A stretch of 53,292 bases of DNA from IMG/VR virus record IMGVR_UViG_3300045977_000215, positions 1-53,292 of that record; one strand, written 5' to 3'. This document shows, piece by piece, positions 7,530-42,845 of this stretch. Each line of letters starts with the position of its first letter. The first letter of the stretch is position 1. Both the position numbers and the translations under genes were made by a program. The stretch comes from a virus. The notes beneath the pieces are model-generated. The model made no database searches and was not told the origin of the DNA. It was given only the letters and a program-made list of their open reading frames with translations.

Positions 7530-9104
7530 GTGGCCACCAGTCCGCGTCTGCCCACCATCGTGGAATTCGTGCGCACGATGCTCGGGCTGTCGCTCTCGCC
7601 GGCCCAGGAGACATTGCTGCGCGCGATCTACGGGCTGCCGCTGGAATCCGCGGAGCAGGAAGCGATCTTTCAGCAGTGCACGGGGCGGGGGACGTATACG
7701 CCCGGCAAGCCCTTTTCCGAGGTGACGGTCCTGGCGGGCCGGCGCAGTGGGAAGGATTCGCGGATTGCGGCGCCGATCGCGTGTTACGAGGCGATCTTCG
7801 GCGGGCACGAGCCGTATCTCGGGCGGGGGGAGGCGGGGGTGATTCCGCTGGTGGCCCAGGACGAGCGCGGGACGCGGATCGCCTACAAGCTGATCCACCG
7901 GTATCTCACGGACTCGCCGCTCTTGAGCCGGATGGTGAAGGACGTGCGGCAGCGCGAGATCGACCTCACGAACGGCCTGTCGGTCTATTGCTTCGCGTGC
8001 TCGGCGAAGTCGCTCCGGGGGTGGGGCTCGCCGGCCGCGGTCATGGACGAGGTCGCGTTCTTCCGGACCGAGGCGGGGACCGTGGTGGACGACGAAGTGC
8101 AGTCGTCGATCCGCGGGGCCGGGGTCGCGTTTCCCCAGCAGCGCCTGGTGAAGATCAGCACGCCGAACGGGAAGAGCGGTGTGCTGTGGGAGGACTTCAA
8201 GCGCTACTGGGCCCAGGACGCCGCGGATGTGCTGGTGTGGCACGCCCCGACGACCCTGATGAATCCGACCGTCACCGACGAGCGACTGGCGCGGGAATAC
8301 CGGCGCGACGCCAAGAAAGCGGGCCGGGAGTACGAGGCGCTCTTCGTCGACGACGTCGAGGCGTTTCTGACGCAAGCCCACATCGAGACGGCGATCGCGC
8401 ATGGCCGGTCCACGGACCTGGCGCCGATCGCGCCGCGGCCCTACTACGTGGCGGGGGTGGACCCGTCCGGCGGGGTGCGCGATGCGTTCGCGCTGTCGGT
8501 GTGCCACGTGGAGGACGGGACGCGGATCGTCCAGGACCTCGTGCGCGCGTGGAAACCCTCACGGACGGAGAAGGCCCGGCTGAGTGAAATCTGCGCGGAG
8601 ATCGCCGCGCTGATCCGGCCCTACGGGATCGCGTCGGTGACGGGTGACAAGTACGCCGCACAGTGGGTGAGCCAGGAATTCCAGCGTGTCGGGGTGTCCT
8701 ACACGCCCTACGACGGCGACAAGTCGAGCGCGTATCTGGCCTTCGAACCGTTCATGACCTCGGGTCGGGTCGAGGTGATCGACGACGCCGAGCAGGTCCG
8801 CGAGCTGACGTTGCTGGAAAAGCATCTCCGCGTGGGGGGGAAACCGCCGCGGATCGATCATCCGAAGGGCAGCCACGACGATCTGGCCAACACGCTGGCG
8901 CTCTGCGTCGCGACCCTGGCGCCCAATCTCTCCCCCGCGGTCGATGTCAGCGTGGCGCCGCCGACCGAGCTGGTGACGCGGCCGGGGATGCGCCTCGGCC
9001 AGGCGCCGGACCTGGAGGACCCCGACCGGACAGGCCGCACGCCGACGCGGTTCTGGTCCGAGCGCGGGCGCGCGCGGTTCTGGCGGCAGGAGGTGGCCGC
9101 GTGA
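7530..9104 (+). CDS. terL: Terminase large subunit
   Basis: A 524-residue packaging motor. ATPase half: Walker A-like AGRRSGKD (69-76), Walker B AVMDE (170-174), coupling motif STPNG (210-214). Nuclease half: acidic residues at Asp311 (AGVDPSGG), Asp373 (TGDKYAAQW) and Asp450-Asp451 (SHDDLAN), the RNase H-like set of terminase nucleases. It cuts concatemers and drives DNA into the procapsid through the portal encoded next. GTG 7530 has a weak ribosome site; an ATG at 7578 is the alternative start. Confidence 0.96.
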   Translation: MATSPRLPTIVEFVRTMLGLSLSPAQETLLRAIYGLPLESAEQEAIFQQCTGRGTYTPGKPFSEVTVLAGRRSGKDSRIAAPIACYEAIFGGHEPYLGRGEAGVIPLVAQDERGTRIAYKLIHRYLTDSPLLSRMVKDVRQREIDLTNGLSVYCFACSAKSLRGWGSPAAVMDEVAFFRTEAGTVVDDEVQSSIRGAGVAFPQQRLVKISTPNGKSGVLWEDFKRYWAQDAADVLVWHAPTTLMNPTVTDERLAREYRRDAKKAGREYEALFVDDVEAFLTQAHIETAIAHGRSTDLAPIAPRPYYVAGVDPSGGVRDAFALSVCHVEDGTRIVQDLVRAWKPSRTEKARLSEICAEIAALIRPYGIASVTGDKYAAQWVSQEFQRVGVSYTPYDGDKSSAYLAFEPFMTSGRVEVIDDAEQVRELTLLEKHLRVGGKPPRIDHPKGSHDDLANTLALCVATLAPNLSPAVDVSVAPPTELVTRPGMRLGQAPDLEDPDRTGRTPTRFWSERGRARFWRQEVAA

Positions 9105-10762
9105 GTCTCCCGCGCTGGCTCGCCTGGCTGGCCCCCACGCCGGACCCGCGCGTGCTGGACCTCGAGGCGCGCCTGGCCAGCGTGGAGGCGCAGACGGAGA
9201 CCCGCGTGCGCGAGGCCTTCGCCATGGGCGCCCTCCGCGCCGAAGACCAGGCCGACCTGGCGCAGGGCTATCGCCGGCTCTCGGATGCGCAGGGCAAGAA
9301 TCCGTGGCGCCGCGATCTGCAGCCCCTGGCGCAGGACCAGATGCAGCGCCTGGTCTACTGGCTCTGGGAGTCCAATCCCCTCGCCAAGTGGCTCATCGAG
9401 ACGCCGGTGAATTTCATGCTCGGCGAGGGCGCCTCGGTCATCAGCCAGAACGATCAGGTGCGCGCGGTGATCGAGGCGTTCTGGGGCGACCCCGTCAACC
9501 AGCTCGACCGGCGGCTGCGGACCTGGGCGCGAGAACTCCTGCTCTACGGGGAACTGTGCCTGCCGGTGTCGGTGAATGCCATTGACGGGCATGTGCGGCT
9601 CGGCTACGTCGACCCGCTGGCGATCGACGAAGTGGTGACCGATCCCGATAACGCCTTGATCACGACGGCGGTCCGCATCAAGTCCTCGGTCACGGGCGGC
9701 CCGAAGCAGCTCCTGAAAGTGATCCGCGAGGACACGCGCCGCGCCTCCTCGACGCACGGTCTCCTGATGCCGAACGCGATGCTGGAACGCGATCTCGCCA
9801 CCGGCGAACCCTACGCGGGGGCGTGCTTTCTGTTCCAGATCAATCGCGTGTCGAGCGCGCGGCGCGGCCGGAGTGAATTGCTGCCGGACATCGACTGGCT
9901 CGATGGCTTCGACGCATTCCTCTTCGACTCGATGGACGCCGCCAGCCAGTTCAACACCTTTCTGTATGACGTGACGCTGGAGGGCATGAGCGAGGATCAA
10001 ATCCGCGCGTGGCTGGCCAACAACACGCGGATGAAGCGCGGGATGATCCGCGCCCACAACGAAAAGGTGAAGTGGGCCGAGGTGACGCCCGACCTCAAGG
10101 CCCAGGACAAGGACGCCTACGCGAAGCTCCTCCTGAGCTTCATCCTCGGTGGCCATTCGATCCCGCTGCACTGGTACGCCAGCGGCGAGGGGGTGTCGTT
10201 CGCGAGCGCCAAGGAGATGGGGCTCGTCCCGGTGAAGGCGTTCACCAGCCTCCAGCAGGAAGTCCGCCGACTCATCGCCGATCTGGTGCGCTTCGCGATT
10301 CATCAAGCCATCCGCGTCGGCGCGTTGCCGGAGACCGTGGTCGTCGGGCAGGTCGACGCGGCCGGATCCTCCACGGCGATCACGGCGCCGACGGACTGCG
10401 CCTTCACCGTCGTCCTGCCGGAACTCTCGATGCGCGACCAGGCGGCCATCGTCGCCGCGATCAACGGGTTGACGGCCGCGACCCAGCAGGTCGTGGCCCT
10501 CGGCTGGATGCGTCCGGAGACGGCGGCCCGCGTCCTCGCCAACATGTATTCGCAGCTCGGCATGGACATCAAGCCCGAGGAGGAGTACACGCCGGGCGCC
10601 GGGCCGCAGGGTGCCGCGCTCCAGGACTACCCCCAGCAGGACCTCCAGCGCCTCATGGCGCAACTGCAACGGGTCGGGCGCGGCGATGGCGAGAACCTTG
10701 GCCAGCCGAAGGACGATCAGACCGCGCGCCGCGCGAGTGTCGCCGCGGGGGGATCGGCATGA
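9101..10762 (+). CDS. Portal protein
   Basis: A 553-residue protein in the canonical place between terL and the MuF-like gene. GTG 9101 overlaps the terL stop and follows AGGAGG. The N-terminal third (LAKWLIETPVNFMLGEG), a mixed alpha/beta middle and a long helical C-terminus (SLQQEVRRLIADLVRFAIHQ) fit dodecameric portal proteins. It forms the DNA channel at one capsid vertex. Identification rests on gene order and overall pattern rather than a short motif. Confidence 0.85.
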   Translation: MSLPRWLAWLAPTPDPRVLDLEARLASVEAQTETRVREAFAMGALRAEDQADLAQGYRRLSDAQGKNPWRRDLQPLAQDQMQRLVYWLWESNPLAKWLIETPVNFMLGEGASVISQNDQVRAVIEAFWGDPVNQLDRRLRTWARELLLYGELCLPVSVNAIDGHVRLGYVDPLAIDEVVTDPDNALITTAVRIKSSVTGGPKQLLKVIREDTRRASSTHGLLMPNAMLERDLATGEPYAGACFLFQINRVSSARRGRSELLPDIDWLDGFDAFLFDSMDAASQFNTFLYDVTLEGMSEDQIRAWLANNTRMKRGMIRAHNEKVKWAEVTPDLKAQDKDAYAKLLLSFILGGHSIPLHWYASGEGVSFASAKEMGLVPVKAFTSLQQEVRRLIADLVRFAIHQAIRVGALPETVVVGQVDAAGSSTAITAPTDCAFTVVLPELSMRDQAAIVAAINGLTAATQQVVALGWMRPETAARVLANMYSQLGMDIKPEEEYTPGAGPQGAALQDYPQQDLQRLMAQLQRVGRGDGENLGQPKDDQTARRASVAAGGSA

Positions 10763-12459
10763 TCGCCCGGGTCACGTTGCAGTCCACGCCGCAGGAACGA
10801 TTCATCGAGCAGATCGCCGCGATTCGCCGGCAGCTCGACGCCTTGCCCGCCGAGGCCGTGCGCGCGCTGACCGAGGAAGTCGACCGCGTGCGGCGCCAGG
10901 TGCTCGCCGAGATCGCCGCCGGACCGGAGGGATTCCCAGAGTACCGACTCCGCGACCTCGCCCGACGCCTCGCCGATGTGCTGGGCCAGTTCGCCGCGCG
11001 CTACGAGACGGTCCTCGGCCCGATCCAGGCGCAGATGTATACCGCGGGGGCGGAGCTCGCCGCGCGCCCCCTGGTGGACGCCGGGGTGACCTACGCCGTG
11101 CCGCAGATCACCCGGCGGCAGCTCGAGGTGCTGCAGGGCTACCAGGCCTCCCTGATCTCCGGCGTGGCCGAGGACACGGTCCGGGCCATCACGTCGACCC
11201 TTCGACTCGGCGCCCTCCGGGGCGAGAGCGTGCCCGAGATTCTCACCCGCGTGGCCGGCCGCCTGGACGATCCGGGCCCGTTCGGTACGCTGGCGACCCG
11301 CGCGGAAGCGATCACGCGGACGGAGCTCGGCCGTGCGCAGGCCATCGCGACCCAGGCCGGCCTCGACGAGACACGGCGCTTTGTCCCCGATCTGAAGAAA
11401 CAGTGGCAGCACTCTGGCAACCGCGGGCCGTACCGCCGGCTCGGGCATGTCGAGGCGCACGGGCAGACCCGGGACGTCGACGCGCCCTTTCGCGTCCGGC
11501 CGGCCCCGGGCCACCGCTACGAGAACCTCATGTTCCCGCGGGATGCCGCAGCCAGCCCGGAGAACTCCGTGTTTTGCTTTCTGCCGGGAACACTGGTGAG
11601 CGGCCGGTTTGTCGGCGCGCTAAAAGCCAGGTACGCGGGGCCGGCGCGGGAGATCAAGACCGCGCGGGGACAGCGGTTGCGCGTCACACCCAATCACCCC
11701 GTATTGACCTCGGACGGTTGGCTCCCTGCGGGCGAGATTCAGGAAGGCCAGGCACTGCTCGGCTATCGCGGGCATGAGAACGGGTCGTTTTTGGGGCTGG
11801 GGGATGTAGATGCCCAGGACCGACCAGCCAGCATCGAGGATGTATTCCAGGCGCTCTCGGTTCAGTCCGCCCCACTGCCCGCCCCCTACGCCATGCTGAA
11901 TCTCCATGGCGATCAAGTCTGGACATATGGCGATGTCCAGGTTACGGGGTCCTACCGGGAACTGTTGCTCTACCGCGACGCCCGCGCCGCGGAGGAGCGC
12001 AGCGAGTTCGTCCTCATGACGGAACCGTCGATGTTGTCCGGCGTACATGCTCTGAGCCCTCAACGTCTTGGTCGCCAGGCTATCTCGCTGGCCGGTTCTG
12101 GCCGCGTGGGCGTTGGCGTATTGACGTCGCGCCCTGTCGGGCTCGGCCCGAAGCCGGGCCCACACGAGATGTCCAGCGTCGGCACTTCCTCGGAGCTGGA
12201 CGCCGCGCTTGGTGAAGTGGCCCGTCAACGCGCAGCGGGATATCCCGGTGTCACGGCTCAGCTTGAGGAGCGATACCCCGGCCTGGTAGAGGCCGATCAG
12301 GTCGTCAAGGTTCGGGATATCGAGCATCGCGGCCATGTCTACGACCTCCAGTCGCCGATGGGGGTGCTCGTCGCTGACGGGATTATAGCCAGTAATTGCG
12401 GATGCATCTCCGTTCCCTGGCGCGAGGAATGGGCCGGCGACCTGGGACGCGCCGCGTGA
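10759..12459 (+). CDS. MuF-like head morphogenesis protein interrupted by an intein
   Basis: A 566-residue precursor with extein residues 1-272 and 547-566. The N-extein is helical and carries a MuF-type minor head domain (ARAEAITRTELGRAQAIATQ, then KKQWQHSGNRGPYRRLGH and DAPFRV). The intein occupies 273-546. Splicing would join NSVF directly to CGCISVPW, restoring the Cys-x-Cys ending typical of MuF domains, so the insertion hits the most conserved spot. Start ATG overlaps the portal stop. Without splicing the MuF domain would be split, so head assembly may depend on splicing. The mature protein would have 292 residues. Confidence 0.88.
   Translation: MIARVTLQSTPQERFIEQIAAIRRQLDALPAEAVRALTEEVDRVRRQVLAEIAAGPEGFPEYRLRDLARRLADVLGQFAARYETVLGPIQAQMYTAGAELAARPLVDAGVTYAVPQITRRQLEVLQGYQASLISGVAEDTVRAITSTLRLGALRGESVPEILTRVAGRLDDPGPFGTLATRAEAITRTELGRAQAIATQAGLDETRRFVPDLKKQWQHSGNRGPYRRLGHVEAHGQTRDVDAPFRVRPAPGHRYENLMFPRDAAASPENSVFCFLPGTLVSGRFVGALKARYAGPAREIKTARGQRLRVTPNHPVLTSDGWLPAGEIQEGQALLGYRGHENGSFLGLGDVDAQDRPASIEDVFQALSVQSAPLPAPYAMLNLHGDQVWTYGDVQVTGSYRELLLYRDARAAEERSEFVLMTEPSMLSGVHALSPQRLGRQAISLAGSGRVGVGVLTSRPVGLGPKPGPHEMSSVGTSSELDAALGEVARQRAAGYPGVTAQLEERYPGLVEADQVVKVRDIEHRGHVYDLQSPMGVLVADGIIASNCGCISVPWREEWAGDLGRAA
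11620..12336 (-). CDS. Putative homing endonuclease encoded antisense within the intein
   Basis: A 238-residue protein read from 12336 down to 11620. Residues about 10-50 form an HTH (LIGLYQAGVSLLKLSRDTGI, then SRCALTGHF). Residues about 108-178 resemble Vsr/DUF559/EDxHD-type PD-(D/E)XK nucleases: Glu108/Glu110 in HEDELAALL, Asp134 in NLDIAI, Glu145-x-Gln147 in IAMEIQ, then RLEYILDAGWSVLGIYI, the R...GW signature of that fold. GGAGGT lies seven bases before the ATG, and TATAAT lies about 46 bases upstream, both on this strand. The last 35 residues are only the reverse of blocks A and B. It is codon-aligned with the intein frame, a phase in which chance ORFs are common; the motifs and signals are what make it credible. 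Probably drives intein homing. Confidence 0.72.
   Translation of the reverse strand: MAAMLDIPNLDDLIGLYQAGVSLLKLSRDTGISRCALTGHFTKRGVQLRGSADAGHLVWARLRAEPDRARRQYANAHAARTGQRDSLATKTLRAQSMYAGQHRRFRHEDELAALLRGAGVAVEQQFPVGPRNLDIAICPDLIAMEIQHGVGGGQWGGLNRERLEYILDAGWSVLGIYIPQPQKRPVLMPAIAEQCLAFLNLARREPTVRGQYGVIGCDAQPLSPRGLDLPRRPRVPGF
12344..12349 (-). promoter_or_regulatory. Shine-Dalgarno GGAGGT of the antisense gene
   Basis: The minus strand reads GGAGGT at 12349-12344 with seven bases before ATG at 12336-12334. This full-strength site decides the start of the antisense gene over longer in-frame extensions reaching 12705. Confidence 0.65.
12382..12387 (-). promoter_or_regulatory. Consensus -10 box (TATAAT) for the antisense endonuclease gene
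   Basis: On the minus strand 12387-12382 reads TATAAT exactly. Transcription starting about seven bases on would give a leader of about 40 bases carrying GGAGGT before ATG 12336. On the plus strand the same bases are part of ATT ATA codons (Ile-Ile before Ala-Ser-Asn), rare choices in this GC-rich genome. No good -35 sits 17 bases upstream. Confidence 0.5.
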
Positions 12460-12859: not shown

Positions 12860-15379
12860 ATGATCCGGCAGGAGGGCGGGAAGTGGGTCCTGCGGTCGCG
12901 TGACGGCGACAAGGTGCTGGGCCGGTTCGACTCCGAAGACGACGCCACGCGCCACGAGGCACACGTCTCTCGGTTCTCGGAGGCGGTGGTGGCCGCCTGG
13001 CATGCGCGCCAGCCGGACTCGGTCGACGCCTGGCGCGTGAGCGAAGTCTTTGACGACGTCGCCGTGGTGTCAAAAGATCGGATGTTCCGCCGCGTGCCCT
13101 ACACGATCGAGGGCGACGCGGTGACGTTCGGATCGCCCGTCGAGATCAACGTCCACTTCGAGGAGATCGGCGAGTCGACCCCACTCGGCCGGCCGACGGA
13201 GCCCACCGGCTCGACCTGGGAGGTGCGCGTCCTGAAATTCGGTCGCTCGCTCAACGGGTGGCTCTGGACTCGGGAGGCCGGCGAGAAGCTCCTAGCGCAC
13301 CTGAGCTCGGCGCCGGTCGGGTGCTACGCCTACCAGGGCGTGACCGCGCACGCGGCCGAAGAGGCGGTGCTGTCGGCCAACGGGCCGGTAGTGCGCAACG
13401 TCGTCGGCGATATCCAGGCGCCCCGGCTCGAGGCGGACGGCGTCTATGCCCAGTTGCACATCCACGAGGACGCCGGCTGGCTGAAGACGAAGCTCCTCGG
13501 TCTGCAGGCTCGCGGCGTCGTCGATAAGGTGCTCGGGCTCTCGATCGATACCCTCGCCGGCTACGTCCCGGTGCAATTGCGCGAGGGCGCCACGAAGGCC
13601 ATCAAGGAGATCGGCCGGCTGATCTCGGTGGATATCGTCACCTCGCCGAGTGCGGATGGCCGGTTCGTGCGGGCTACGGCCGGACCCTTGCTCATGCCCC
13701 ATTCCACCACCACGCAGGAGGACCTCATGACCCGCGAGCAGATTCTCCAACTCATCCAGGCCAATCGGCCCCAGCTCCTCGCGGGCCGGGCGATCGAATC
13801 CATCACCGACGAAACCCTCCAGCTCTTGCTCGGCGACGCCATCAAGCTTGCCGCGCCAGCTCCTGCGCCGGCCCCGACGCCTCCGCCGCCCTACCAGGGC
13901 GGCGCGGGGACACCGCCCGCTCAAACGCCGCAGTGGGCGGCCGACATGGAACGCCGCTACGCCGTCAGCGTGACCCAGGCGCGCGTGGTCGAGGCCCTGG
14001 CTGGCGCCGTCACGCTGTCGGAGCTGGCGCGCGAGCGCGTGCGCAAGGCGTTCGTGGACAAGGTGGCGGACGCCGCGGAGATCGCCGCGCGCATCCAGGA
14101 AGAGCGGGAGTACCTCGCGGCGCTGTCGGGGTCAGGGGAGATTCGCGGCTTCGGCGCGACCCGGACGGAAGTGCTCGCGGCCCCGCTCGACAAGGTGCAG
14201 GCCGCGATGGACAAGATGTTCTTCCAGGACCTGGAGCCGGGGAGCCTCGACCTCGCGCGGTCCTTGGCGAATTCGCCCTTCACGCCGACCGCGCGCGCTC
14301 GGCTGCTGGAGTCCTACAAAGCCCGCGATGCCGCCATGAGTCGCGACCCTGGTCTGAAGTTCAAGGGGCTGCGCGATGCCTACGCGACCATCACCGGCGA
14401 CGAGGACATCACCGGGCATGTCGTGCGCGCCCGCGCCTCGGAAGCCATCCTCTCCACGACCTGGGCGGACATCCTCGGCAACACGCTCTATCGTCGCCTC
14501 TTGATGGATTACGCGCTCCCGCAGTACAACGAGCGCTCCATCTGCGACTTTGGCACGGCGCCGGACTTCCGGACCCGAGAAGTCGTGCATCTGAACTACT
14601 TCGCCGATATCTCCACGGTCGATCCGGAGTCTGCGGACTACACGGAGATCGCGGCGCCCGGGGACGACAAGGTCACCTATGCGGTGACCCAGCGCGGGAA
14701 CATCCTGACCATTTCGCGCAAGACGATCATCAACGACGATCTGAGCGCGGTCTCGCGGCTCGTCGGGCGCCTGGGTCGCTCCGCCCGCCGCACCCTGGCC
14801 AAGCACATCTGGGCCTTCTGGAACACCAATGCGGTGTTCGATGTCGATAGCGTGGCGTGGTTCAACGCGGCCCACGGCGCCAACACCTCCACGACGGTGC
14901 TCTCCGCGGATGCGACCGGCGCCGCCGCGGTCCGCGTCGGCATCACCGCCCTGATGAATATGGCCGAGCCGGGCTCGACCGAGAAACTTGGCATCCCGGA
15001 CCTCAATCAGCTCTGGCTCGATGTGCCGATCGCGCTCTGGACGGTGGCGGATGCGCTGAACCGCGCGCCGGAATTCGGCGCCGGCACCAAGAACCTCGTG
15101 TCGGGTCTCTTCGGCGCCAATAACGAGCGGGTGAACGCGAATCCGCTCCTGACGGATGCGACCGACTGGGGCGTCCACATGTCACCGGGCACCAGCGGGC
15201 GCGAGTCGCTGCGCGTGGACTTCCTGCAGGGCCGCGAAGAGCCTGAGTTCTTCCTGGCCGACCAGCCGACCGTGGGCCAAGCGTTCATCGCGGACAAGAT
15301 TCAATACAAGATTCGTCACGAGTACGGCGGCGACCTCATGGACTACCGCGGCGCCTTCAAAGCCATCGTGGCCGGCTAA
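12860..15379 (+). CDS. Prohead protease fused to major capsid protein
   Basis: An 839-residue fusion. Residues 1-280 resemble a phage prohead serine protease: AQLHIHED (His200, His202), GLSIDTLAG (Ser228) and LISVDIVTSPSADG (254-267). Residues 290-370 are a helical scaffold-like segment with a Pro/Ala linker (PAPAPAPTPPPP). Residues about 480-839 look like an HK97-fold capsid protein. Processing would release capsid subunits after assembly. ATG 12860 has no clear Shine-Dalgarno, whereas an internal in-frame ATG at 13727 (Met290) has AGGAGG five bases upstream, so a separate scaffold-capsid product is likely. Confidence 0.85.
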   Translation: MIRQEGGKWVLRSRDGDKVLGRFDSEDDATRHEAHVSRFSEAVVAAWHARQPDSVDAWRVSEVFDDVAVVSKDRMFRRVPYTIEGDAVTFGSPVEINVHFEEIGESTPLGRPTEPTGSTWEVRVLKFGRSLNGWLWTREAGEKLLAHLSSAPVGCYAYQGVTAHAAEEAVLSANGPVVRNVVGDIQAPRLEADGVYAQLHIHEDAGWLKTKLLGLQARGVVDKVLGLSIDTLAGYVPVQLREGATKAIKEIGRLISVDIVTSPSADGRFVRATAGPLLMPHSTTTQEDLMTREQILQLIQANRPQLLAGRAIESITDETLQLLLGDAIKLAAPAPAPAPTPPPPYQGGAGTPPAQTPQWAADMERRYAVSVTQARVVEALAGAVTLSELARERVRKAFVDKVADAAEIAARIQEEREYLAALSGSGEIRGFGATRTEVLAAPLDKVQAAMDKMFFQDLEPGSLDLARSLANSPFTPTARARLLESYKARDAAMSRDPGLKFKGLRDAYATITGDEDITGHVVRARASEAILSTTWADILGNTLYRRLLMDYALPQYNERSICDFGTAPDFRTREVVHLNYFADISTVDPESADYTEIAAPGDDKVTYAVTQRGNILTISRKTIINDDLSAVSRLVGRLGRSARRTLAKHIWAFWNTNAVFDVDSVAWFNAAHGANTSTTVLSADATGAAAVRVGITALMNMAEPGSTEKLGIPDLNQLWLDVPIALWTVADALNRAPEFGAGTKNLVSGLFGANNERVNANPLLTDATDWGVHMSPGTSGRESLRVDFLQGREEPEFFLADQPTVGQAFIADKIQYKIRHEYGGDLMDYRGAFKAIVAG
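13716..13729 (+). promoter_or_regulatory. Internal ribosome site and in-frame start at the protease/capsid junction
   Basis: AGGAGG at 13716-13721, five bases, then ATG at 13727-13729, in frame with the fusion (Met290). A nested product of 550 residues (13727-15379) would begin exactly where the protease domain ends. This recalls nested scaffold starts such as lambda C/Nu3. Confidence 0.65.
13884..13904 (+). repeat. 9-bp hairpin in the scaffold/capsid linker
   Basis: CGCCGCCCT (13884-13892), ACC loop, AGGGCGGCG (13896-13904). It is a perfect stem inside coding DNA for the Pro-rich linker. No T-run follows, so it is not an intrinsic terminator. It could affect translation speed or be a by-product of codon choice. 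Confidence 0.5.
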
Positions 15380-30200: not shown

Positions 30201-33200
30201 GGCTGTCTCGAACATCCCGTCGACGACGACGCTCGCTGGCCGCGCGGCGCAAGACGTCTGGGGTGGCGATACGCGTATCCAGTCGCCGACCGGCATCAAT
30301 GTCGGCTGCACGTTCTCGGGTGTGTCGACCGGGATGACGTCGACCGTCTTGACGCACGCGGGCGCGAGCTTCCCGATTGATGGCCGCCTCGTGGGCAAGC
30401 TCATCTGTCCGAACACCGCGTTTGTGGACGCACCACCGAATAACCGACAACTCTGGTACCGGATCGCCAGCAACACCGCCACCACGATCACTATCGTGGG
30501 AGGGCCCGATGGCGCGCTGACCGATCACGCGACGTCGGGTAACGCCTACATGATCACCGGCGTCTTCCGAGTCGAAAAGATCGGAGACCAGTGGTGGTTC
30601 ATCGATCCGGAGGGCTACGCCTACTGTCATCGGGGCGCGGTGGGCGTGGTCGACAAGTTTGGCGGCGGCTTCGAGACAACCAACGTCTACACGGCGATCT
30701 ACCTGGAGACTGCGGCCGGGACGAAGACGGCCAACCTGCGCCTGGAAGGTGCGTCATGGGCCATGGACCCAGCGGCGGCGCCTGGCGATGTTATCGACTC
30801 CAGCGGCGTCACTTGCCAAGCCGTCAACGACAAGATGTACATTGGTCACTCCCGCCCCTTCGCCGAGACGTACTTTCAGATGAGCCAGGTGGGTGTGGGT
30901 GGGGCGATCCAGTGGTACTACTCCATCAGCGGCGGCAGTGGCTGGCAACTCCTCGGCGTGGGCGGGGCGACCGGGCATCCGTACAACACGCTCGCGTTCT
31001 CCGGCAATGCGAACTACACCGATCAGTCCTGGGCGTTCCACATCTCGGATACGGGAACGATTCAAGGCAATGGGCAGGGCTACAACGGGCTCCGGGTCTC
31101 GTGGTTTCGTCCGGAGCAGTATCCGGCGCCGACGGATTGGGCTCCGGTGACGCTCTCCGGCACGGACGGCGTCGCTCGGTACTATCTCCGTGGCGTCGTG
31201 ACCACGCAGTTCACGACGGACCCGAAGGTCAATGCGTGCTTCGATTGTACGCGTCAAAGCCAGTTGATCGACCTCAAGTATCAGGGGGCCTCCGTCTCGA
31301 TCGGCCAAGGGCTCTGGGATCAGATGAGAGGGTGGGGTCTGACGGGGTGCGGCTACTCGTCGAGCTACGCCGACTACGCGATGGCGGCCGGGCTCGTGCG
31401 GCATGCCCCGATCTGGCATCACACCAACGTGACGTATAACGCCGAGCCGATCGTCAAGAATATGTACTCGCAGGTTCCGAACTCGGGCTCGCCTGATATA
31501 GGGCGCTCCATCTACGGGGTGTCGACGGGTCTGACGGCCACGACGTTGACCGATAGCACGGCGCCCTTCGGGGCCGTCAATAGTCTCGTGGGCAAGCGGA
31601 TGGTGCCGAACACCGCCGCCGATAACTCCACCTTCTCGTATTCCTATCCGATCGTCTCGAACACCTCTACCGTGGTCACAATCTCTGGTGGGGATACGGC
31701 CAGCATGCTCGACCATGCGACCGTCGGCGACCAGTGGAAGATCGCGATGGAGATCGGTCGCGAGCAGGTCGACGTCTGGGAGCCGAGCCTGTACGACAGC
31801 GCCGGGGACATCCTAAACTATCCACCGTCCAGTCCCTACGTCTGGTGGCACTTCCGGCCCAATCCGAATGTCCTCTTCTACGTCACCGACGAGCCCGACT
31901 TTATTTACGGGATGTCCTGGGAGTACGAGCGCACGCACATGATCTATTGCGTGGCCGCGAGCAATCCCTATCGCGTCGAGAACCTCAAGCACGGGCCGGT
32001 CGGGGGTGGAGATCACCGGCTCTTTGCCAAGTACGCTTGGCGCGACTATCTGAGATACAAGTACAAGCCCGCGGCCGAGTCGAAGACGCCGCTGACGCGC
32101 GAGTCGACGGTGCCGCTGTACACCTACACCGGGAGCGCTGACGATAACACGGCGCTCACCAATCTCAACGCCGCGTGGAACACGGCCTACACCACGTGGG
32201 ACACGCAGAGCGGCAGCATCGCGGCCGGGACGAACGCCTGGAAGTGGGACAACACGACCGGAACTGGATTTATGGATGAGAACGGCATCCACCTCGTGAC
32301 GACGTTCCCGCCACTGGCCAACGGCAGCGTCGGCGCGCACGTCAGCTATGACAACCTGGAGGCCAACTGCCGGACCCAGGCTATCTACAACGATATCCGC
32401 GACTTCTCGGCACTTACCGCGAGCAAGTACACCTACATCGTGTACGACCAGCTTCACGCGCGATCACCGAACCTCGTCGCGAGCTTCTTCTACGGACCCT
32501 CGCCGGAGCAGGCGCGGGCCATCAACGAATATGCCGATATCGAATGGACGTCGACCAGTCCGCTCCTGACGCGCGCCGAGAATGCCGCGGCGAATAATAC
32601 GGCGCTCCCTGGCCACGTCGTATATCGCTATTTGAACGACCACGAGAGGCCGCTCTACTACGAAGTCTATACGATGTGCACGCAGGACTCGCCGATCAAC
32701 TACGGCGGCGTGGTGTCGTCGGTCTCCTACTCCAGCGGCACCAACCGTACGGAGATCACCTGGACGCTGGGGCAACCGCTCCTGATCAGGAACAGCGTCG
32801 ACAAGTTCATTCACGTCGTCGAGAGCGACACCGCGCACCGGATCGTCGATTTCGTGGGGACGACCCTGTACGTTGCCGGAGATCAAACCGCGTTCGTGGC
32901 GGTCGGGAACACCATCGAGGTTCCGGATGCTATCGCGCTGGCCTGGGGCTATCCTGACTGGCCGAAGACGCATGCGTCGGCAGCCGCCGCGGAGCGCGAC
33001 GAGCTGTCGTCGCTCGTCATGACCGCGCGGGCGCCAGACGGGACGTACCCCGTCGCCGGCATCTCGAAGTGGGGATTCCAGGACAACCCGCAGATGCTCG
33101 GCTATGAGACCTCGGCATGGGGGTGGAACACCTCGCAATTCAACGCCTACGACGGCATTGAGAACGTCGTCCCGGCCACGAAGGACGCCAACGGCGTGTG

Positions 33201-33624
33201 GCGCGGTGGCGAGTACAAAGCCTACGGCGATTACGTCACCACCATGCGCGCGTTCATGCTGAGCCTAGAGGACACGCTGGTCCTCCGGACCACGGTCCCG
33301 CTGGCGCCGACCTTCGTGAGCACGACGGCAGTGACGTGGGACGCCAACGAGCTGGAGACCTTCAGCGTGGCGACGGCCGGGAGTCCACCCGCCGCCATCA
33401 CGCTTGATGCCGGATCGCTCCCGGCTGGGACGGCGCTGCTGAGCAACGGAGACGGCAGCGCGGTCCTCGGGGGCGTGCCGACCGTGACCGGCACGTTTCC
33501 TATCACGCTTCGCGCGACGAATTCAGCCGGGACTGTCACCCAAGCATTCACGATCCATCTGGGCGCGGCCCCGCCGAGTCCGACGCTCGTGACCAGAAAA
33601 CTATTGCTCGGAGTAGGAGCGTAA
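27241..33624 (+). CDS. Giant multi-domain tail fibre with Fn3 repeats and glycoside-hydrolase-like region, 2127 aa
   Basis: Seen in order: N-terminal beta domain (1-225); two glycine-rich MTSSG linkers (near 235 and 440); a LamG/concanavalin-like domain (about 470-700); three fibronectin-III-like domains (about 704-1000; ATITWTTEVNATSRVEYG, GLTPNTVYQFRVKS); a region opening with RVEKIGDQWWFIDPEGY (near 1110) that resembles agarase-like (beta/alpha)8 enzymes, with YVTDEPDFIYGMSWEYE near 1547 as a possible acid-bearing active-site loop; a putative Ig domain near 2025-2107; and a C-terminal TRKLLLGVGA. A roughly 75-residue module is duplicated (30319-30540, 31516-31720). Likely binds and degrades a surface glycan. 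Confidence 0.78.
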   Translation: MAITVTLRSQTADATDASFYGIASVTPSSNKLSLLAVTSHRGTATPTVPTVTGCGLTWVQVATVTYNTLASADSRLTVFRAMGGSPTEGNIVADWSGVTQQCGLLSWAEADGVDTGGTNGSAAVVQAVTSASNAATSIGASLSPFGDGTNNAAWAVATHDGSVSAMTVTANGYTELGTQQTITAPNARIGSAWRVGDADPSFTWTANRDVAMIAVEIKAAATGVTGSGAVTFDGMTSSGEGSVGGGGGAAIDQGYDFRASEPYVTDADGEIWVGGGTANGWSTDDVNATDGSTGVDYRLAGSCWIENDGTQGTYSITLPSTGTFTIRIAAGAVSFASDEQFVQIQDDTTPVLTINQAAGYGIAQFYDATNTLRTSASDWVSNNASVDLTFTTTTLRILLGTAGSNPSTWSAIAHLHIFSAGGGGGGPVEGVGAVTWAGMTSSGSGIGPGGSSGKPAQGATVNAAHALAPVHCWLMDEATGRPHDIGTAALPPPSLDTPTWSTVGGFGAVTQWDGTKHTEYGTGNLLAGSTKFTIVLSAKPDATLGWNQTGAFLSKKVSAGSGFILMFGPSASGFTSSMWFEVGIGTTYGIDYGWYVPTPSGTQQQIIVAYDAARAAGDRVRLYIDGTQITDGHNGGSPVSVEGTPTVPSDTTTMIKLGEGAKWSETQDGKEFKGDLGYLYIINNFFPTAGEVASLASNPFPFARTSPLLTAISATGLTNTTATITWTTEVNATSRVEYGITDYAQSATDGALVTAHSMPLSGLTPNTVYQFRVKSTASSVTATSGHFSFQTTPTPAVLGPVLIDKLSSTKVRVSFASDIPTTAVVDYGVTVGYGSQVTDTTLQTLHRIMLSGLSAATPYHIRATVTTASLVSTLSPDRVFQTTIADIVAPAAITNLSVLANRIAQNGVRLRWTAPGSDGTTGRAATYTVKRSTAMINEGNFAAATTVAQTIDATMAGGTEEVIVPGLNPSTTYFFAVKTTDAEGNTSAVSNIPSTTTLAGRAAQDVWGGDTRIQSPTGINVGCTFSGVSTGMTSTVLTHAGASFPIDGRLVGKLICPNTAFVDAPPNNRQLWYRIASNTATTITIVGGPDGALTDHATSGNAYMITGVFRVEKIGDQWWFIDPEGYAYCHRGAVGVVDKFGGGFETTNVYTAIYLETAAGTKTANLRLEGASWAMDPAAAPGDVIDSSGVTCQAVNDKMYIGHSRPFAETYFQMSQVGVGGAIQWYYSISGGSGWQLLGVGGATGHPYNTLAFSGNANYTDQSWAFHISDTGTIQGNGQGYNGLRVSWFRPEQYPAPTDWAPVTLSGTDGVARYYLRGVVTTQFTTDPKVNACFDCTRQSQLIDLKYQGASVSIGQGLWDQMRGWGLTGCGYSSSYADYAMAAGLVRHAPIWHHTNVTYNAEPIVKNMYSQVPNSGSPDIGRSIYGVSTGLTATTLTDSTAPFGAVNSLVGKRMVPNTAADNSTFSYSYPIVSNTSTVVTISGGDTASMLDHATVGDQWKIAMEIGREQVDVWEPSLYDSAGDILNYPPSSPYVWWHFRPNPNVLFYVTDEPDFIYGMSWEYERTHMIYCVAASNPYRVENLKHGPVGGGDHRLFAKYAWRDYLRYKYKPAAESKTPLTRESTVPLYTYTGSADDNTALTNLNAAWNTAYTTWDTQSGSIAAGTNAWKWDNTTGTGFMDENGIHLVTTFPPLANGSVGAHVSYDNLEANCRTQAIYNDIRDFSALTASKYTYIVYDQLHARSPNLVASFFYGPSPEQARAINEYADIEWTSTSPLLTRAENAAANNTALPGHVVYRYLNDHERPLYYEVYTMCTQDSPINYGGVVSSVSYSSGTNRTEITWTLGQPLLIRNSVDKFIHVVESDTAHRIVDFVGTTLYVAGDQTAFVAVGNTIEVPDAIALAWGYPDWPKTHASAAAAERDELSSLVMTARAPDGTYPVAGISKWGFQDNPQMLGYETSAWGWNTSQFNAYDGIENVVPATKDANGVWRGGEYKAYGDYVTTMRAFMLSLEDTLVLRTTVPLAPTFVSTTAVTWDANELETFSVATAGSPPAAITLDAGSLPAGTALLSNGDGSAVLGGVPTVTGTFPITLRATNSAGTVTQAFTIHLGAAPPSPTLVTRKLLLGVGA

Positions 33625-33631
33625 AAGGGCC

Positions 33632-34342
33632 ATGGCCGACAATGTCACCGCGAACGCAGGGACCGGCGGCTCCACCTTCGCCACCGATGATATTAGCGGA
33701 GTCCACTACCCGCGGAGCAAGGTCGTCTGGGGCTCGGATGGCGTCGCGACGGATACAGCTGATAGCGGAGGATCGAGGCTCCCGGTCAAGGTCGGCGACG
33801 CGCTCCCGGCCGGCACCAACAACATCGGCGACGTCGACGTGCTCACGATGCCGGGCGTGGTCGGCGACGTGGCGCATGACGCCTCAGACTCGGGCAACCC
33901 GCTCAAGATCGGCGGTGTCGCCAGGACGACCGACCCGACTGCCGTATCCGCGGCCGGGGATCGCGTCAACTTCATCGGGGACACGCTCGGGAAACAGGTG
34001 GTGCTCCTGGGCGCGGTCCATGATCGCCACACGAACGGCAAGGGGACCTTCACCAACTCGACCGCGGCCGACCTGATCGCGGCGGCTGGCTCTGGCGTCA
34101 AGATCGTTATCACGAATGTCCTTGTCACGAATGCCCACGCGACGGTCGGCACCAAGGTGGAGATTCGGGACGGGACGACGATGAAGGTACAGGGGTTTGC
34201 GGCCGCTGGGGGTGGCGGCTTCGCGCTGTCGCCAGGCGTGCCGATCATGATCAGTACGGCCAACACCGCCATCACGGGTCGCTGCGCCACCACGGGCGCT
34301 GACGTGGACATCTTCGTCAGCGGATACACGATCAGCAACTAA
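33632..34342 (+). CDS. Virion surface protein, 236 aa (paralogue of 36624)
   Basis: Begins MADNVTANAGTGGSTFATDD, close to MADNLTVTSGNTGSW of the gene at 36624. A beta-rich protein with a C-terminal domain (KIVITNVLVTNAHATVGTKV) typical of small fibre or head-decoration proteins. It sits between the giant fibre and the baseplate hub, suggesting a tail-tip accessory role. Confidence 0.65.
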   Translation: MADNVTANAGTGGSTFATDDISGVHYPRSKVVWGSDGVATDTADSGGSRLPVKVGDALPAGTNNIGDVDVLTMPGVVGDVAHDASDSGNPLKIGGVARTTDPTAVSAAGDRVNFIGDTLGKQVVLLGAVHDRHTNGKGTFTNSTAADLIAAAGSGVKIVITNVLVTNAHATVGTKVEIRDGTTMKVQGFAAAGGGGFALSPGVPIMISTANTAITGRCATTGADVDIFVSGYTISN

Positions 34343-36426
34343 TGCACCTCACGCATCTCGTCCTCTACTCGTTTCTGTCGGGCGCCGGGGCGCCTGGCCT
34401 CACGCCTGTCGCGCGAGAGGTGCCGCAGAGCGTAGAGTTTCTCGTCCAAGTGGGCGACGTCCGCATCGGGACGTGGGCGCACGTCGGTGCGTCGTGGCTC
34501 CTGACGCCTGAGTTGTGGCTCACCACGCCGGACGCGTGGCTAAGCTTGCGCCCATCCTACCGGCCCGCGCTGCTCGATCCGGGCGTGGTGGAAGTGCGCC
34601 TGCAACGGACGTCGTACGGATTCCAAGACGTCTCCCTCTGGCGGTTCACCGTCGACAACCTCGACGGGCGGTACAACGCGCTGTGGAACGCGCAGGGCCA
34701 GCCTGTCACGCGGTGGCGCCACGATCGCCGCGCGAGCCCTCCGGTGACCATCGAGGAATTCACTGGCGTCCTCGATCGCGTGACCATCGGCGACGGGCGC
34801 GATCCCGGCATCCTCATCTGCGAGGCGACGAGCCAGGATTTGAGTGCGCTGGACACGCTGATCCCGGCGCGCCTGACGAGCACTGACCTCTTCGGCGAGT
34901 CGTGCCCCGAGCCGGGCGTGCCGATCAAGAAGGTCATCGGCGACGCGAAGAAGGTACGCCTGCCGTACGTGATTGACGACACCGTCCAGAGCATCTTTTG
35001 GTACGGGCCGCTCGAAGGCTCGGTCACCATCACGGCCGTGTACCGCAACCGCATCGGGACGGATCAGGTGGAGCAGCTCGACCCCTCCGAGTACGAGGTG
35101 GCGTACCACGAGACGCTGCGCTGGACCGCGGTGCGCACCTATCGGCGCCAGTCGGCCACGGGCGGGGGATTCCATGCGCTGTACGCCGACGTCTCGTCAC
35201 CGGCGACCGAGCGTAGTCCAGCCGTCGCGCTCGGGCTGCTGATGAATGATCCGACGTGGGGCTGTGGGCAACCCGTCGATTGGGCCGCCGTCATGACCGA
35301 GGCGGCGCTCCTGCCAGCGGAATTGCGCGTCGACGGCGTCATCGGGTGGGACGAGCAGCAGCGCCCGGCCCGCGACTACCTCGACTGGATACTCATGCTC
35401 CGCGGCGGCCGGCCGGTGCTGGATCGCGAGCGCGGCTGGCGCGCCGAGTTCGACTCGCTCGCGGCGACCGAATCTATGATGGTGCTCCGCGACGACGCCG
35501 GCCCCGGAGAGCGGACGCTGCTGGAGATCGGCCAGCGCGAGATGCCGCCACTGAACGAGCGCGTGAAGACGCTACGGCTCCGCTACGGGTGGGACGATCC
35601 CACGCAAGCGCTCCTCTACTCCGCGGCGGACCGGGCGGTGAGCGACAAGGGGCGCGTGGAGATCATCGAGAATCCGATGCTGAGCGACCCGACCTCGGCG
35701 GACCACGCGGCACACTACATCGCTCTCCGCAAGGGCGACGAGGCCGACCTGGTGCGGGACGCCGTGGTCCACGAAGGCGGCCGGCGCATCCGCCCGGGGG
35801 ACATCGTCCACGCGATCTGCCCGCAGCTCCAGATCGACGGTGAGGATCGCCTGGTGATCGGGGTGGCGCTCGACGCGGGCCGCCAGCGTCTCCACCATAT
35901 CCGGCACTCGCCGGCCAAGTACACGCACGTGGCGGGCGCGCTGCCGACGCCGCAGGTGCTGACGGCTGCCGGCGGCGCGCTCGTGGCGCCGTTCGGCAAC
36001 GTCAATACGGCCGCTGACGCCGTGGAGAACGCGGTGCGCATCGTGACCGCGGATCTCGAGGTTGCGGAGGTCGACTTCGCCGGAGACCAAGAGATTGTCT
36101 CCACCCTGTTCCAGTCCGAGGGCGGCGCGGTCATGATCTTCGCGTCGGCCACCATGCAGGACTTCGTGCCGAGCTCCGGGGCGCCGTCGGTCTCCATCAA
36201 GATCATCGTGGACGACTTCGCGACGCCGACGAATAGCGTGGTGACGCCGACCATGAGCCTGCCCGCGAGCTGGGCCGATCCGGCCGAGTTCCGGCACGCG
36301 CTGCTCGATATCGACGTGACGGTGCTCTCGCGCGGGACGCACAAGATCACGCTGCAAGGCGTCGGGGGTGGTGGCACGTGGACGGCGTTCGGCCCGCGTA
36401 TCACGATCGTGGAGTTTCGACGCTGA
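34342..36426 (+). CDS. Baseplate hub / tail-associated protein, 694 aa
   Basis: A large protein after the fibre genes. The N-terminal half (VEVRLQRTSYGFQDVSLWRF, NLDGRYNALW) looks like a hub domain, with a middle segment LNERVKTLRLRYGWDD and a phage-type IRPGDIVHAICPQLQIDGED region found in tail-tip proteins. The C-terminus is a beta sandwich. It would bridge the tail tube to fibres. No lytic active site was recognised. One-base TAATG-type junction with the gene before. Confidence 0.65.
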   Translation: MHLTHLVLYSFLSGAGAPGLTPVAREVPQSVEFLVQVGDVRIGTWAHVGASWLLTPELWLTTPDAWLSLRPSYRPALLDPGVVEVRLQRTSYGFQDVSLWRFTVDNLDGRYNALWNAQGQPVTRWRHDRRASPPVTIEEFTGVLDRVTIGDGRDPGILICEATSQDLSALDTLIPARLTSTDLFGESCPEPGVPIKKVIGDAKKVRLPYVIDDTVQSIFWYGPLEGSVTITAVYRNRIGTDQVEQLDPSEYEVAYHETLRWTAVRTYRRQSATGGGFHALYADVSSPATERSPAVALGLLMNDPTWGCGQPVDWAAVMTEAALLPAELRVDGVIGWDEQQRPARDYLDWILMLRGGRPVLDRERGWRAEFDSLAATESMMVLRDDAGPGERTLLEIGQREMPPLNERVKTLRLRYGWDDPTQALLYSAADRAVSDKGRVEIIENPMLSDPTSADHAAHYIALRKGDEADLVRDAVVHEGGRRIRPGDIVHAICPQLQIDGEDRLVIGVALDAGRQRLHHIRHSPAKYTHVAGALPTPQVLTAAGGALVAPFGNVNTAADAVENAVRIVTADLEVAEVDFAGDQEIVSTLFQSEGGAVMIFASATMQDFVPSSGAPSVSIKIIVDDFATPTNSVVTPTMSLPASWADPAEFRHALLDIDVTVLSRGTHKITLQGVGGGGTWTAFGPRITIVEFRR

Positions 36427-36608
36427 TGCCGTGCCCATCGTGCGGCTGTGGGACGAGCGACATGCTCTGCGCTTGGCACATCGAGCTGGTGGTGCCGTGG
36501 CACGAGTCGAACAAGATCATGTGCGATTTCTTCCACCGCGGCGTCGTGCCGTGCCGGCTCGCCGAGAGCGAGCGTGAGCCGGAGCACACGGCCCCGATGA
36601 GCCAGTAA
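36426..36608 (+). CDS. Small Cys/His-rich protein, 60 aa
   Basis: TGATG overlap with the hub gene. CPSCGCGTSDMLCAWH at the N-terminus plus two later cysteines gives a probable zinc site. An intracellular zinc protein amid tail genes is unusual. Function unknown. Confidence 0.6.
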   Translation: MPCPSCGCGTSDMLCAWHIELVVPWHESNKIMCDFFHRGVVPCRLAESEREPEHTAPMSQ

Positions 36609-36623
36609 AAAGGGGGGGCTGGA

Positions 36624-37004
36624 ATGGCCGACAACCTCACAGTGACATCCGGCAACACCGGGTCATGGACGGCAGCGACGGAGGACATTGGCGGCGCCCA
36701 TCACCAGCGCATTGTCCCGTATCTGCGGAGTAACGCGACGACGACCGGCTTCAACGCCACGACGTCGTCGAGCGCGGCGTTGGCAGCCAATACAGCACGC
36801 CGCGGGCTCATGATTCAGAATATGTCGGATACGGATGTCTTCGGCGCCTTCAATGCGACACCGGTCGCGACGGCCGGATCAGAGGTGGGCTTCCTGATCG
36901 CGGCGCGCGGATACGTGGAGTTCTTCACCATGGTCGACACGCGGGCGGTCAACGTCATTCATGCAGACGCAGGGAACAAGCGTCTGCTCATCACGGAGTG
37001 GTAA
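36624..37004 (+). CDS. Virion surface protein, 126 aa (paralogue of 33632)
   Basis: Preceded by a G-rich ribosome site. MADNLTVTSGNTGSWTAATE parallels the N-terminus of the 33632 gene. The domain ANTARRGLMIQNMSDTDVF is a jelly-roll-like pattern common in small phage receptor or decoration proteins. Probably attached to tail or head. Confidence 0.65.
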   Translation: MADNLTVTSGNTGSWTAATEDIGGAHHQRIVPYLRSNATTTGFNATTSSSAALAANTARRGLMIQNMSDTDVFGAFNATPVATAGSEVGFLIAARGYVEFFTMVDTRAVNVIHADAGNKRLLITEW

Positions 37005-39107: not shown

Positions 39108-39889
39108 TGATGATGAGACGCCTACTACTCATATCGGCGCTGATCGTAGGATGTCCCGCGGCGGCATGGGCGGCAGTCGCCTTCGACGCCTTCGGCTACG
39201 AGCGGTGCATGGTGACAGGCGCCACGTGCACCAGCGACACATCGAACACGTACGCCATCACGGTAGGAGCCGGGTCTGAGCGACAGTTAGCGGTCTTTGT
39301 GTTCATCGGGTGCTCGTCTGCGAGTACGGCCCCGGCCATATCAGGCGTGACGTATGCCGGCCAGGCGCTGACCCAGATTGCCGCAGTGAATCCCCACCAG
39401 GCTCGTCGGGGGGAGCTGTGGGCTCTACCGGCCGGTACCGAGCCAACCAGCGGGACCAACAACGTGGTGATCACGCTCGCCGCAGCCCTCAGCACGAACT
39501 GCGGCGGGAACGGGTCAATGCAGAGTGGGGCGATCTCGGCGACAGGAGTAGACCAGACAACGACCTTCACCAGCAGCAATACGAACTCAGGCACGAGCAC
39601 CACGCCCACAGTCACCCTCTCCTCTAGCGGGGCGAATGACCTGGTGGTGCATGCGGTGTGCGCTGGAGACGGTATCACCAGCACAGCGGAAGGCACGGAG
39701 CGATGGAACGACGATAACACGCTCAGCAGTTGCGGCTCCTCTGGTGGAGCGACCGTGCCGGGTGGAGACACATCACTTGCATGGACCGTCCCGAGCGACT
39801 CGTGGATTATGCTCGGGGCATCCTTCAAGGCCTCCGGTGGGGCTGCGGCCGGAGCCAGTCGCCAAATGCTCCTCGGGGTAGGGCCATGA
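39107..39889 (+). CDS. Exported beta-sandwich protein with C-terminal LLGVG tail, 260 aa
   Basis: N-terminus RRLLLISALIVGCPAAAWA is a signal peptide (AWA cleavage; VGC could alternatively act as a lipobox). The body has the same domain pattern as the first 225 residues of the giant fibre (GVTYAGQALTQIA..., GATVPGGDTSLAWTVPSDSW). The C-terminus ASRQMLLGVGP matches TRKLLLGVGA of the giant fibre. Start ATG 39107 overlaps the previous stop as TGATG; GTG 39104 and ATGs at 39110 and 39113 are alternatives. Confidence 0.72.
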   Translation: MMMRRLLLISALIVGCPAAAWAAVAFDAFGYERCMVTGATCTSDTSNTYAITVGAGSERQLAVFVFIGCSSASTAPAISGVTYAGQALTQIAAVNPHQARRGELWALPAGTEPTSGTNNVVITLAAALSTNCGGNGSMQSGAISATGVDQTTTFTSSNTNSGTSTTPTVTLSSSGANDLVVHAVCAGDGITSTAEGTERWNDDNTLSSCGSSGGATVPGGDTSLAWTVPSDSWIMLGASFKASGGAAAGASRQMLLGVGP

Positions 39890-41199: not shown

Positions 41200-41212
41200 G
41201 GAGACCACGCAC

Positions 41213-41662
41213 ATGGCCAATCTCGTCTACAACAAGGGTCTGGAGGAACTTGGCAAGGCGCTTACGGACCTCGACGCCTCAGACCTCCGCATGCTGCTCG
41301 TGCAGTCGACGTACACGGCGAACAAGGATCATCTCACCGTCGATGACGGCACGGCCAACGACCCGGCCAGCCACGAGGTGAGCGTCAGTGGCTACGGGCG
41401 CCAAGCTCTGGCGAACAAGGTGGTGACGCGGGACGATACCAACGATTTTGCGTATCTCGATGCGGACGACGTTGTATTTGTGACGCTGGCCACGGGCCAG
41501 ACCGTCGGTGGCGCGGTGCTATTTCGCCATACGGGTGCTGACGGCACCGCTGTGCTGATCGGATTTTACGATCTCGCGGACACCCCAACGAATGGTGGCA
41601 ATATCACAGTTCAATTCAACACGCCCGCGAACGGCGGCGCACTCAAGCTGGAGAGTCTGTAG
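41213..41662 (+). CDS. Phage structural protein, 149 aa
   Basis: AAGGAGACC precedes ATG 41213. Begins MANLVYNKGLEELGKALTDL, then beta strands (DDVVFVTLATGQTVGGAVLF). This pattern occurs in small tail or collar proteins of many phages, exact role unknown. No signal peptide, unlike its upstream neighbours. Confidence 0.7.
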   Translation: MANLVYNKGLEELGKALTDLDASDLRMLLVQSTYTANKDHLTVDDGTANDPASHEVSVSGYGRQALANKVVTRDDTNDFAYLDADDVVFVTLATGQTVGGAVLFRHTGADGTAVLIGFYDLADTPTNGGNITVQFNTPANGGALKLESL

Positions 41663-41699
41663 GGCTGAGGCCGATGCATGATCTTGGCGTGGTGGCCTG

Positions 41700-42248: not shown

Positions 42249-42260
42249 GGGGGGACACAC

Positions 42261-42602: not shown

Positions 42603-42823
42603 GCGAGCGCCTTATCATCACCACGTCCGCCATCGGCGTGGCCCATTTCTTCGCCTTCTGGACGCCGGACGGCTGGCGCCTGCTCCGCGCGTATGAGACG
42701 CCACCGACGCATGGTCGGTGGGTGGCGCTCTCCGATCTGTGGCGCTACGACGTCGGCGCCATCGACGCCGACGAGGCGCGCCTTGTCGCGTTGGCGCCGG
42801 CCACATCCGATCCGTGGGCATAA
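42599..42823 (+). CDS. Small hypothetical protein, 74 aa
   Basis: ATGA overlap with the preceding gene. An alpha/beta sequence with aromatic core (AHFFAFWTPDGWRLLRAY). Not recognised. Packing in the operon and good third-position GC support it. Confidence 0.6.
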   Translation: MSERLIITTSAIGVAHFFAFWTPDGWRLLRAYETPPTHGRWVALSDLWRYDVGAIDADEARLVALAPATSDPWA

Positions 42824-42845
42824 CACCAACCCGAAAGGAGCGTCC

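Follow-up and report, generated by a model that had tools for sequence, protein, structure and literature searches.

A MuF-like head gene in the viral genome analysed here is interrupted by an intein that very probably is mobile and whose homing endonuclease has a gene of its own, encoded antisense within the intein DNA; cleavage and homing by this nuclease are inferred. Well over a hundred further phages and prophages show this two-strand layout. It is likely that these loci represent a large class of selfish elements with dual coding: a splicing domain and a homing endonuclease lie on opposite strands, and the conserved splicing blocks also serve the nuclease gene as promoter, ribosome-binding site, start codon, and C-terminus.

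The sequence analysed was the virus record IMGVR_UViG_3300045977_000215 (53,292 bases), referred to below as the window. The head genes in the window are in the usual order of terminase, portal, MuF-like protein, and fused protease and major capsid protein (Table 1). The head maturation protease and major capsid protein were apparently fused in a single ORF (12860-15379; PHROG matches). Further downstream, in the region 30400-43868, four long stretches or ORFs (30400-33624, 34342-36426, 37005-39107, and 42693-43868) gave no PHROG match at E 0.001.

Table 1. Features of the intein locus and its surroundings. Positions are those of the window.
Feature	Position	Strand	Basis or remark
Terminase	within 7530-9104		PHROG matches
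Portal	within 9065-10762		PHROG matches
MuF-like minor head/head morphogenesis protein, 566 aa including the intein	10759..12459	+	PHROG head morphogenesis matches; Phage_Mu_F weak; ATG and TGA checked
Intein, 274 codons, Cys1 to Asn274	11575..12396	+	Pfam Intein_splicing; invariant residues across 29 inteins; Foldseek
Block B, TPNH (TxxH)	11686..11697	+	Antisense to the C-terminal YGVIG motif of the minus protein; intein and minus-protein alignments
Antisense homing endonuclease gene (predicted), 238 aa	11620..12336	-	ATG at 12336, stop TAG at 11622-11620
Helix-turn-helix domain, residues 10-43 of the minus product	12208..12309	-	AlphaFold helices; HTH families in relatives; structural matches to HTH domains
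Vsr/PD-(D/E)XK-like nuclease core, residues 102-204	11725..12033	-	E108, N132, D134, E145, and R162 present
Start codon ATG of the minus gene	12334..12336	-	Antisense to the block F His codon (CAT)
Shine-Dalgarno sequence GGAGG of the minus gene	12345..12349	-	Antisense to Asp-Leu-Gln of block F
Candidate -10 box TATAAT of the minus gene	12382..12387	-	Antisense to Ile-Ile of block G (ATT ATA)

A class 1-type intein in the MuF-like gene

The insertion site of the intein precedes the conserved Cys in the MuF motif (...F/C...N/CGC, with slashes at the junctions). Its sequence contains Cys1, TPNH in block B, GHVYDLQ in block F, IIASN in block G, and a +1 Cys, and the signature of class 1 inteins (Cys1, TxxH in block B, a terminal Asn, and a +1 Cys, Ser, or Thr) is thus present. 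C1, TxxH, and N274 were invariant in an alignment of 29 inteins. Pfam Intein_splicing matched the MuF-like protein with E=3e-8, and this match was split around the middle of the intein. The N- and C-terminal parts of the intein model predicted by AlphaFold had pLDDT values of mostly 87-97, while almost all values for residues 132-223 were below 50; the Foldseek matches of this model were intein structures, and the HINT fold was recognisable. A Pfam scan of the plus frame found no nuclease domain in the intein. The plus-strand element is therefore, as predicted from sequence and model, a class 1-type intein expected to splice, which agrees with a preliminary description of this DNA that had read blocks A, B, F, and G on the plus strand and had noted the lack of an in-frame endonuclease.

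The penultimate residue of block G is Ser in the window and His in many relatives. A penultimate His is common in class 1 inteins but is not universal. Noncanonical penultimate residues are known in working phage inteins (PMC5050341). In the plus-strand alignment, an HGD motif and Leu130 were conserved in the middle of the intein.

The minus-strand gene encodes a predicted HTH-nuclease protein

The minus-strand ORF is exactly codon-aligned with the intein frame. When its product from the window was used as a direct query, a Pfam scan gave no match, and a comparison with PHROG gave only weak HTH matches, none of them below E 0.03. The nuclease assignment of this protein was made via its relatives, for which a family was built first. 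PF18741 (MTES_1575 REase) was matched in 39 of the 48 family members, and DUF559, HTH_58, and many other HTH families were also matched (Pfam). The family profile matched 3hrl (E=4.7e-8) and the catalytic domain of I-Bth0305I (3r3p, E=1e-4) in the PDB, as well as Vsr weakly (E=0.05). The AlphaFold model of the minus product had a mean pLDDT of 93.2, and Foldseek placed I-Bth0305I first and Vsr second among its matches with modest E-values (0.02-0.09). In VIA-align comparisons, residues 102-236 gave Z scores of 10.4 for Vsr, 9.9 for 3hrl, and 9.6 for I-Bth0305I, and residues 1-49 matched HTH structures. The conserved acidic active-site residues of Vsr/I-Bth0305I-like nucleases are present in the window copy. 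Judged from these profiles and models, the minus product is predicted to consist of an N-terminal HTH and a Vsr/I-Bth0305I-like nuclease fold. A 238-residue protein with an HTH and a Vsr/PD-(D/E)XK-like core, starting at ATG 12336, had been proposed from the letters alone; profiles, Foldseek, and VIA-align all support it, and since both nuclease and HTH families were matched, the concern that the product belongs to no such family falls away.

G119, N132, D134, E145, R162, and Y212 were invariant in an alignment of 17 family members. Across 48 members, R49, D134, E145, R162, and Y212 were kept, and E108 and N132 were nearly invariant. The window protein has Arg at the position of the near-invariant Tyr131, and the canonical Lys of PD-(D/E)XK is absent from it. 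For the histidine of the EDxHD signature, no clear equivalent is seen in the window (EIQHGVGGG); ExFGGxWH occurs in one subgroup of the family. In five loci (L004, L007, L008, L010, and L012), the N-terminal HTH of the minus protein was apparently duplicated. The minus proteins thus seem to acquire and lose specificity modules without closure of the plus frame.

The antisense arrangement is widespread

Homologues of the minus product were found by tblastn in 37 phage records, with approximately 30% identity over most of the length. The hosts of these phages were Pseudomonas, Cronobacter, Vibrio, Gordonia, Mycobacterium, Idiomarinaceae, and Rhodococcus, and in every phage record examined the homologue lay opposite an intein-bearing head gene. 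A search for related loci with the plus-strand intein as a single query found nothing. A scan of IMG/VR gave 198 matches, from which 80 loci were kept, and both frames were open in all of them. The pattern employed in this first wide scan was itself antisense to block B, and a rescan used only nuclease-core patterns, giving 504 matches (near-duplicates are contained in both match counts). In 103 of the 104 loci of the nuclease-core scan, the homologue was antisense to and codon-aligned with a plus-strand ORF that is open; a recognisable block B was present in 83 of the 103. Since the scan based on the nuclease core alone finds 103 of 104, the antisense arrangement is not an ascertainment effect of block B. 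When nine loci were scanned with Pfam, an intein match was obtained in all nine and a match to MuF or minor capsid protein 2 in eight; two were fused to a portal protein.

The sole exception among the 104 loci, in a Thermoleophilia genome (L103), is a free-standing homologue with its nuclease core at about 2501-2800, which is convergent with and lies just downstream of an intein-less MuF gene. The frame antisense to this homologue contains stops, as expected if the plus frame stays open only where the intein needs it. It is possible that L103 represents the ancestral or an escaped form of the antisense nuclease.

Two further loci look like cases of nuclease decay after fixation, in which the intein was kept: the MuF intein of Rhodococcus phage REQ3 (L013) has a shortened antisense ORF without the HTH part, and the L118 intein, from which the block F His has been lost, carries a short minus ORF. 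These shortened ORFs, together with the Arg at position 131, raise the question of whether the window copy is likewise decaying and no longer cuts, a reading that is compatible with a homing system for the family as a whole. We regard this as unlikely for the window, where the ORF is full-length, the start codon, Shine-Dalgarno sequence, and -10 box are intact, and E108, N132, D134, E145, and R162 are all in place.

A MuF ORF of Scytonema (L108:815-3604) contained two Hint-type domains, namely an N-terminal PT-HINT match followed by an intein with an antisense nuclease.

Purifying selection acts mainly on the minus frame

The window contains many long minus frames that are open, and the codon-aligned phase favours them; the minus ORF might thus be a chance product of antisense reading in a GC-rich gene. 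The preliminary description had itself warned of this. The warning was right in principle, but it is answered by comparison, that is, by the homologues and the positions of substitutions. When antisense frames overlap in codon alignment, plus position 1 lies opposite minus position 3. Over 1847 codons of the overlap in ten independent close pairs, the differences at plus positions 1, 2, and 3 numbered 447, 117, and 241, respectively; in the N-extein, 249, 165, and 520 differences were counted over 1337 codons in seven of these pairs. The substitutions in the overlap pile up at plus position 1, which is minus position 3, and this indicates that selection acts on the minus protein. By this measure, which is independent of ORF length, purifying selection in the overlap is mainly on the minus frame. 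The two-strand comparison of substitutions that had been suggested for this locus therefore speaks against purifying selection confined to the plus frame.

No minus-strand stop occurred in 23,930 overlap codons of 138 non-redundant loci, as compared with 517 expected from extein codon usage, an expectation that is inflated by ascertainment since the loci were found via the minus protein. Because of this bias, the stop count is supporting evidence only, and the conclusion rests on the substitution positions. The minus frame was also conserved in AT-rich loci, and the nuclease and HTH homology, the high pLDDT, and the selected start and Shine-Dalgarno codons described below likewise disagree with a chance origin. 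A chance ORF, which is rejected by the codon-position test, has in our estimation a negligible probability.

It could also be argued that the middle of the intein, as an in-frame linker with a DFHGD motif, is itself the selected sequence and that the similarity on the minus strand is its shadow. The conserved HGD motif and Leu130 make some constraint on the plus strand likely. However, the minus reading outscored the plus reading in 136 of 137 comparisons of the overlap alone with the window, and in 1459 of 1500 random pairs. Variation was highest at plus position 1, the opposite of what selection on the plus strand would give, the intein middle was predicted with pLDDT below 50, and HGD is antisense to the VAVE motif of the nuclease. 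On the strength of the codon positions and the minus-versus-plus scores, selection on the plus strand was rejected as the source of the minus similarity; we consider it very improbable.

Expression signals of the minus gene lie within the splicing blocks

The preliminary description had placed a Shine-Dalgarno sequence ahead of ATG 12336, and GGAGG was indeed found at 12349-12345. The codons of the splicing blocks that lie opposite these signals were biased and departed widely from the usage in exteins. Block F His was encoded by CAT in 42 of 48 cases, where 19.6 +/- 3.1 would be expected. For the Leu opposite the Shine-Dalgarno sequence, CTC was used in 45 of 53 cases, and CTG, for which 21 cases were expected, did not occur. 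These biases are strong evidence, at the level of codon choice, that the start and Shine-Dalgarno signals of the minus gene are selected in the codons of block F.

The second Ile of block G was encoded by the rare codon ATA at 37 of 64 sites, as against an expectation of 7.9 of 58, and a perfect minus-strand TATAAT was present in 24 of 129 loci, including the window. In a few loci the block G pattern was misplaced, which weakens the -10 signal and does not create it. When the region upstream of the minus gene was scanned for generic sigma-70 signals, the excess was only slight (8.1 versus 7.6 in shuffled sequences). These observations are suggestive of a promoter of the minus gene whose -10 box is antisense to block G. 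The codon biases of the block F His and the block G Ile could partly have other causes. In a small control, conventional inteins in the same genomes (three usable cases) were without the block F His, the TATAAT, and an open minus frame.

Mobility of the intein

Intein-free alleles were searched for with the two flanks joined as a query, and relatives from Pseudomonas, Gordonia, and Salmonella were covered. Among the matches listed for P. aeruginosa phages, 14 records had the intein and 23 were without it, the latter being contiguous with 95.5-97.8% identity. Contiguous intein-free alleles were also found in phages of Gordonia, with identities of up to 97.5% (the value around the site for Rofo, which is intein-free, against Fosterous, which has the intein), and in those of Salmonella, with up to 90%. 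Between two loci whose 900-base flanks were 91.6% and 95.6% identical, the whole intein was 99.4% identical, and in another pair the intein was 93% identical with flanks of 73% and 81%. The contrast is not universal, since the reverse was seen in Gordonia phages Fosterous and Vivi2 (intein 89.5%, flanks 93-96%). As far as allele comparison goes, the intein is shown to be patchily distributed and to move horizontally between phages, independently of the host gene. Ordinary recombination could also give a patchy distribution and such contrasts in divergence. For the window copy, mobility may be presumed from its relatives. The dual-coded mobile element envisaged in the preliminary description thus gains support from the open frames across loci, the selection on the minus strand, and the intein-free alleles of relatives, with homing as its probable mode of spread.

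The antisense gene may be real and yet serve mainly another purpose than homing, as a DNA-binding regulator or as a nuclease against competing phages. Proteins with an HTH and a nuclease can have such roles, and homing endonucleases can also act in phage exclusion. The near-exclusive residence of the gene in inteins at MuF-type genes, however, fits homing, as do the intein-free alleles in close relatives and an intein that moves faster than its flanks, and even the free-standing copy lies beside MuF. We therefore hold a main role other than homing to be distinctly unlikely.

Proposed mechanism

Under the preferred explanation, a mobile intein with an antisense homing endonuclease gene, the self-splicing HINT domain on the plus strand would keep the MuF head protein functional. 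The nuclease gene, located on the minus strand between and partly within the splicing blocks, would be expressed in cells from its own Shine-Dalgarno sequence and ATG, and probably from its own -10 box. The nuclease would cut MuF alleles that lack the intein, at the conserved Asn-Cys codons or close to them, and repair of the break would copy the intein together with the antisense gene into the cut MuF gene. The long variable middle of the intein may then be nuclease-gene sequence that is read through in the intein frame, for the most part disordered, and tolerated. Both frames are able to stay open because, in the codon-aligned phase, each has to avoid only TTA, CTA, and TCA, for which Leu and Ser synonyms exist. 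If this mechanism is correct, dual coding uncouples the expression of the nuclease from host-gene expression and splicing.

Relation to known systems

I-DsqI, a His-Cys homing endonuclease of Didymium squamulosum, is encoded antisense in a nuclear rDNA group I intron, and its expression and cleavage were shown (PMC9548176). It resembles the present case in that the homing endonuclease gene lies on the strand opposite the host gene of a spliced element. It differs in that the element splices as RNA, so that the overlap does not force two protein frames, and in being eukaryotic and of another nuclease family. The TerL inteins of mycobacteriophages are bifunctional, with an in-frame LAGLIDADG homing endonuclease domain (PMC5050341). 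They share with the window intein blocks A, B, F, and G, mobility among phages, and the location of the nuclease information between blocks B and F; their LAGLIDADG domain, unlike the separate antisense gene of another family in the window, is translated in frame and released by splicing.

In work on 'fractured genes', EDxHD/Vsr-type endonucleases are reportedly situated between the halves of split genes. EDxHD/Vsr homing endonucleases are carried in introns, including phage group II introns (PMC12350094). With I-Bth0305I, the best Foldseek match, the window protein shares the catalytic fold, acidic core residues, and a separate DNA-binding module, whereas the EDxHD/Vsr enzymes are carried in sense by introns and the window copy has no clear EDxHD histidine. 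The nuclease core also resembles nucleases of the PF18741 MTES_1575/DUF559 type, such as 3hrl, although the window copy itself falls below the match threshold, in contrast to most of its relatives. To our knowledge, nucleases of this type are not known as intein-borne.

Inteins have been described as carrying their endonuclease in frame and releasing it by splicing. A full-text search of open-licence PMC papers turned up no description of an intein with an antisense endonuclease, in agreement with the preliminary description, to which no such case was known. In the passages of a Salmonella Jerseyvirus paper that deal with it, an intein-containing capsid morphogenesis gene is noted and the antisense gene goes unmentioned (PMC8425127). 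The two-strand arrangement of intein and nuclease thus appears to be undescribed before.

The hundreds of loci found here offer an alternative to the in-frame endonuclease that annotation has missed: in the carriers that were looked up, the plus-strand gene alone was annotated, under 'hypothetical' or 'minor capsid', with no entry for its antisense partner. Single cases of antisense protein-coding overlap in prokaryotic viruses are usually disputed. The intein/nuclease loci provide a large, conserved, and measurable overlap of this kind, in which codon alignment lets the substitution positions reveal the coding strand. Many pairs of phages with and without the intein exist for direct tests of homing. 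These results also suggest that other apparent mini-inteins are worth reading on both strands.
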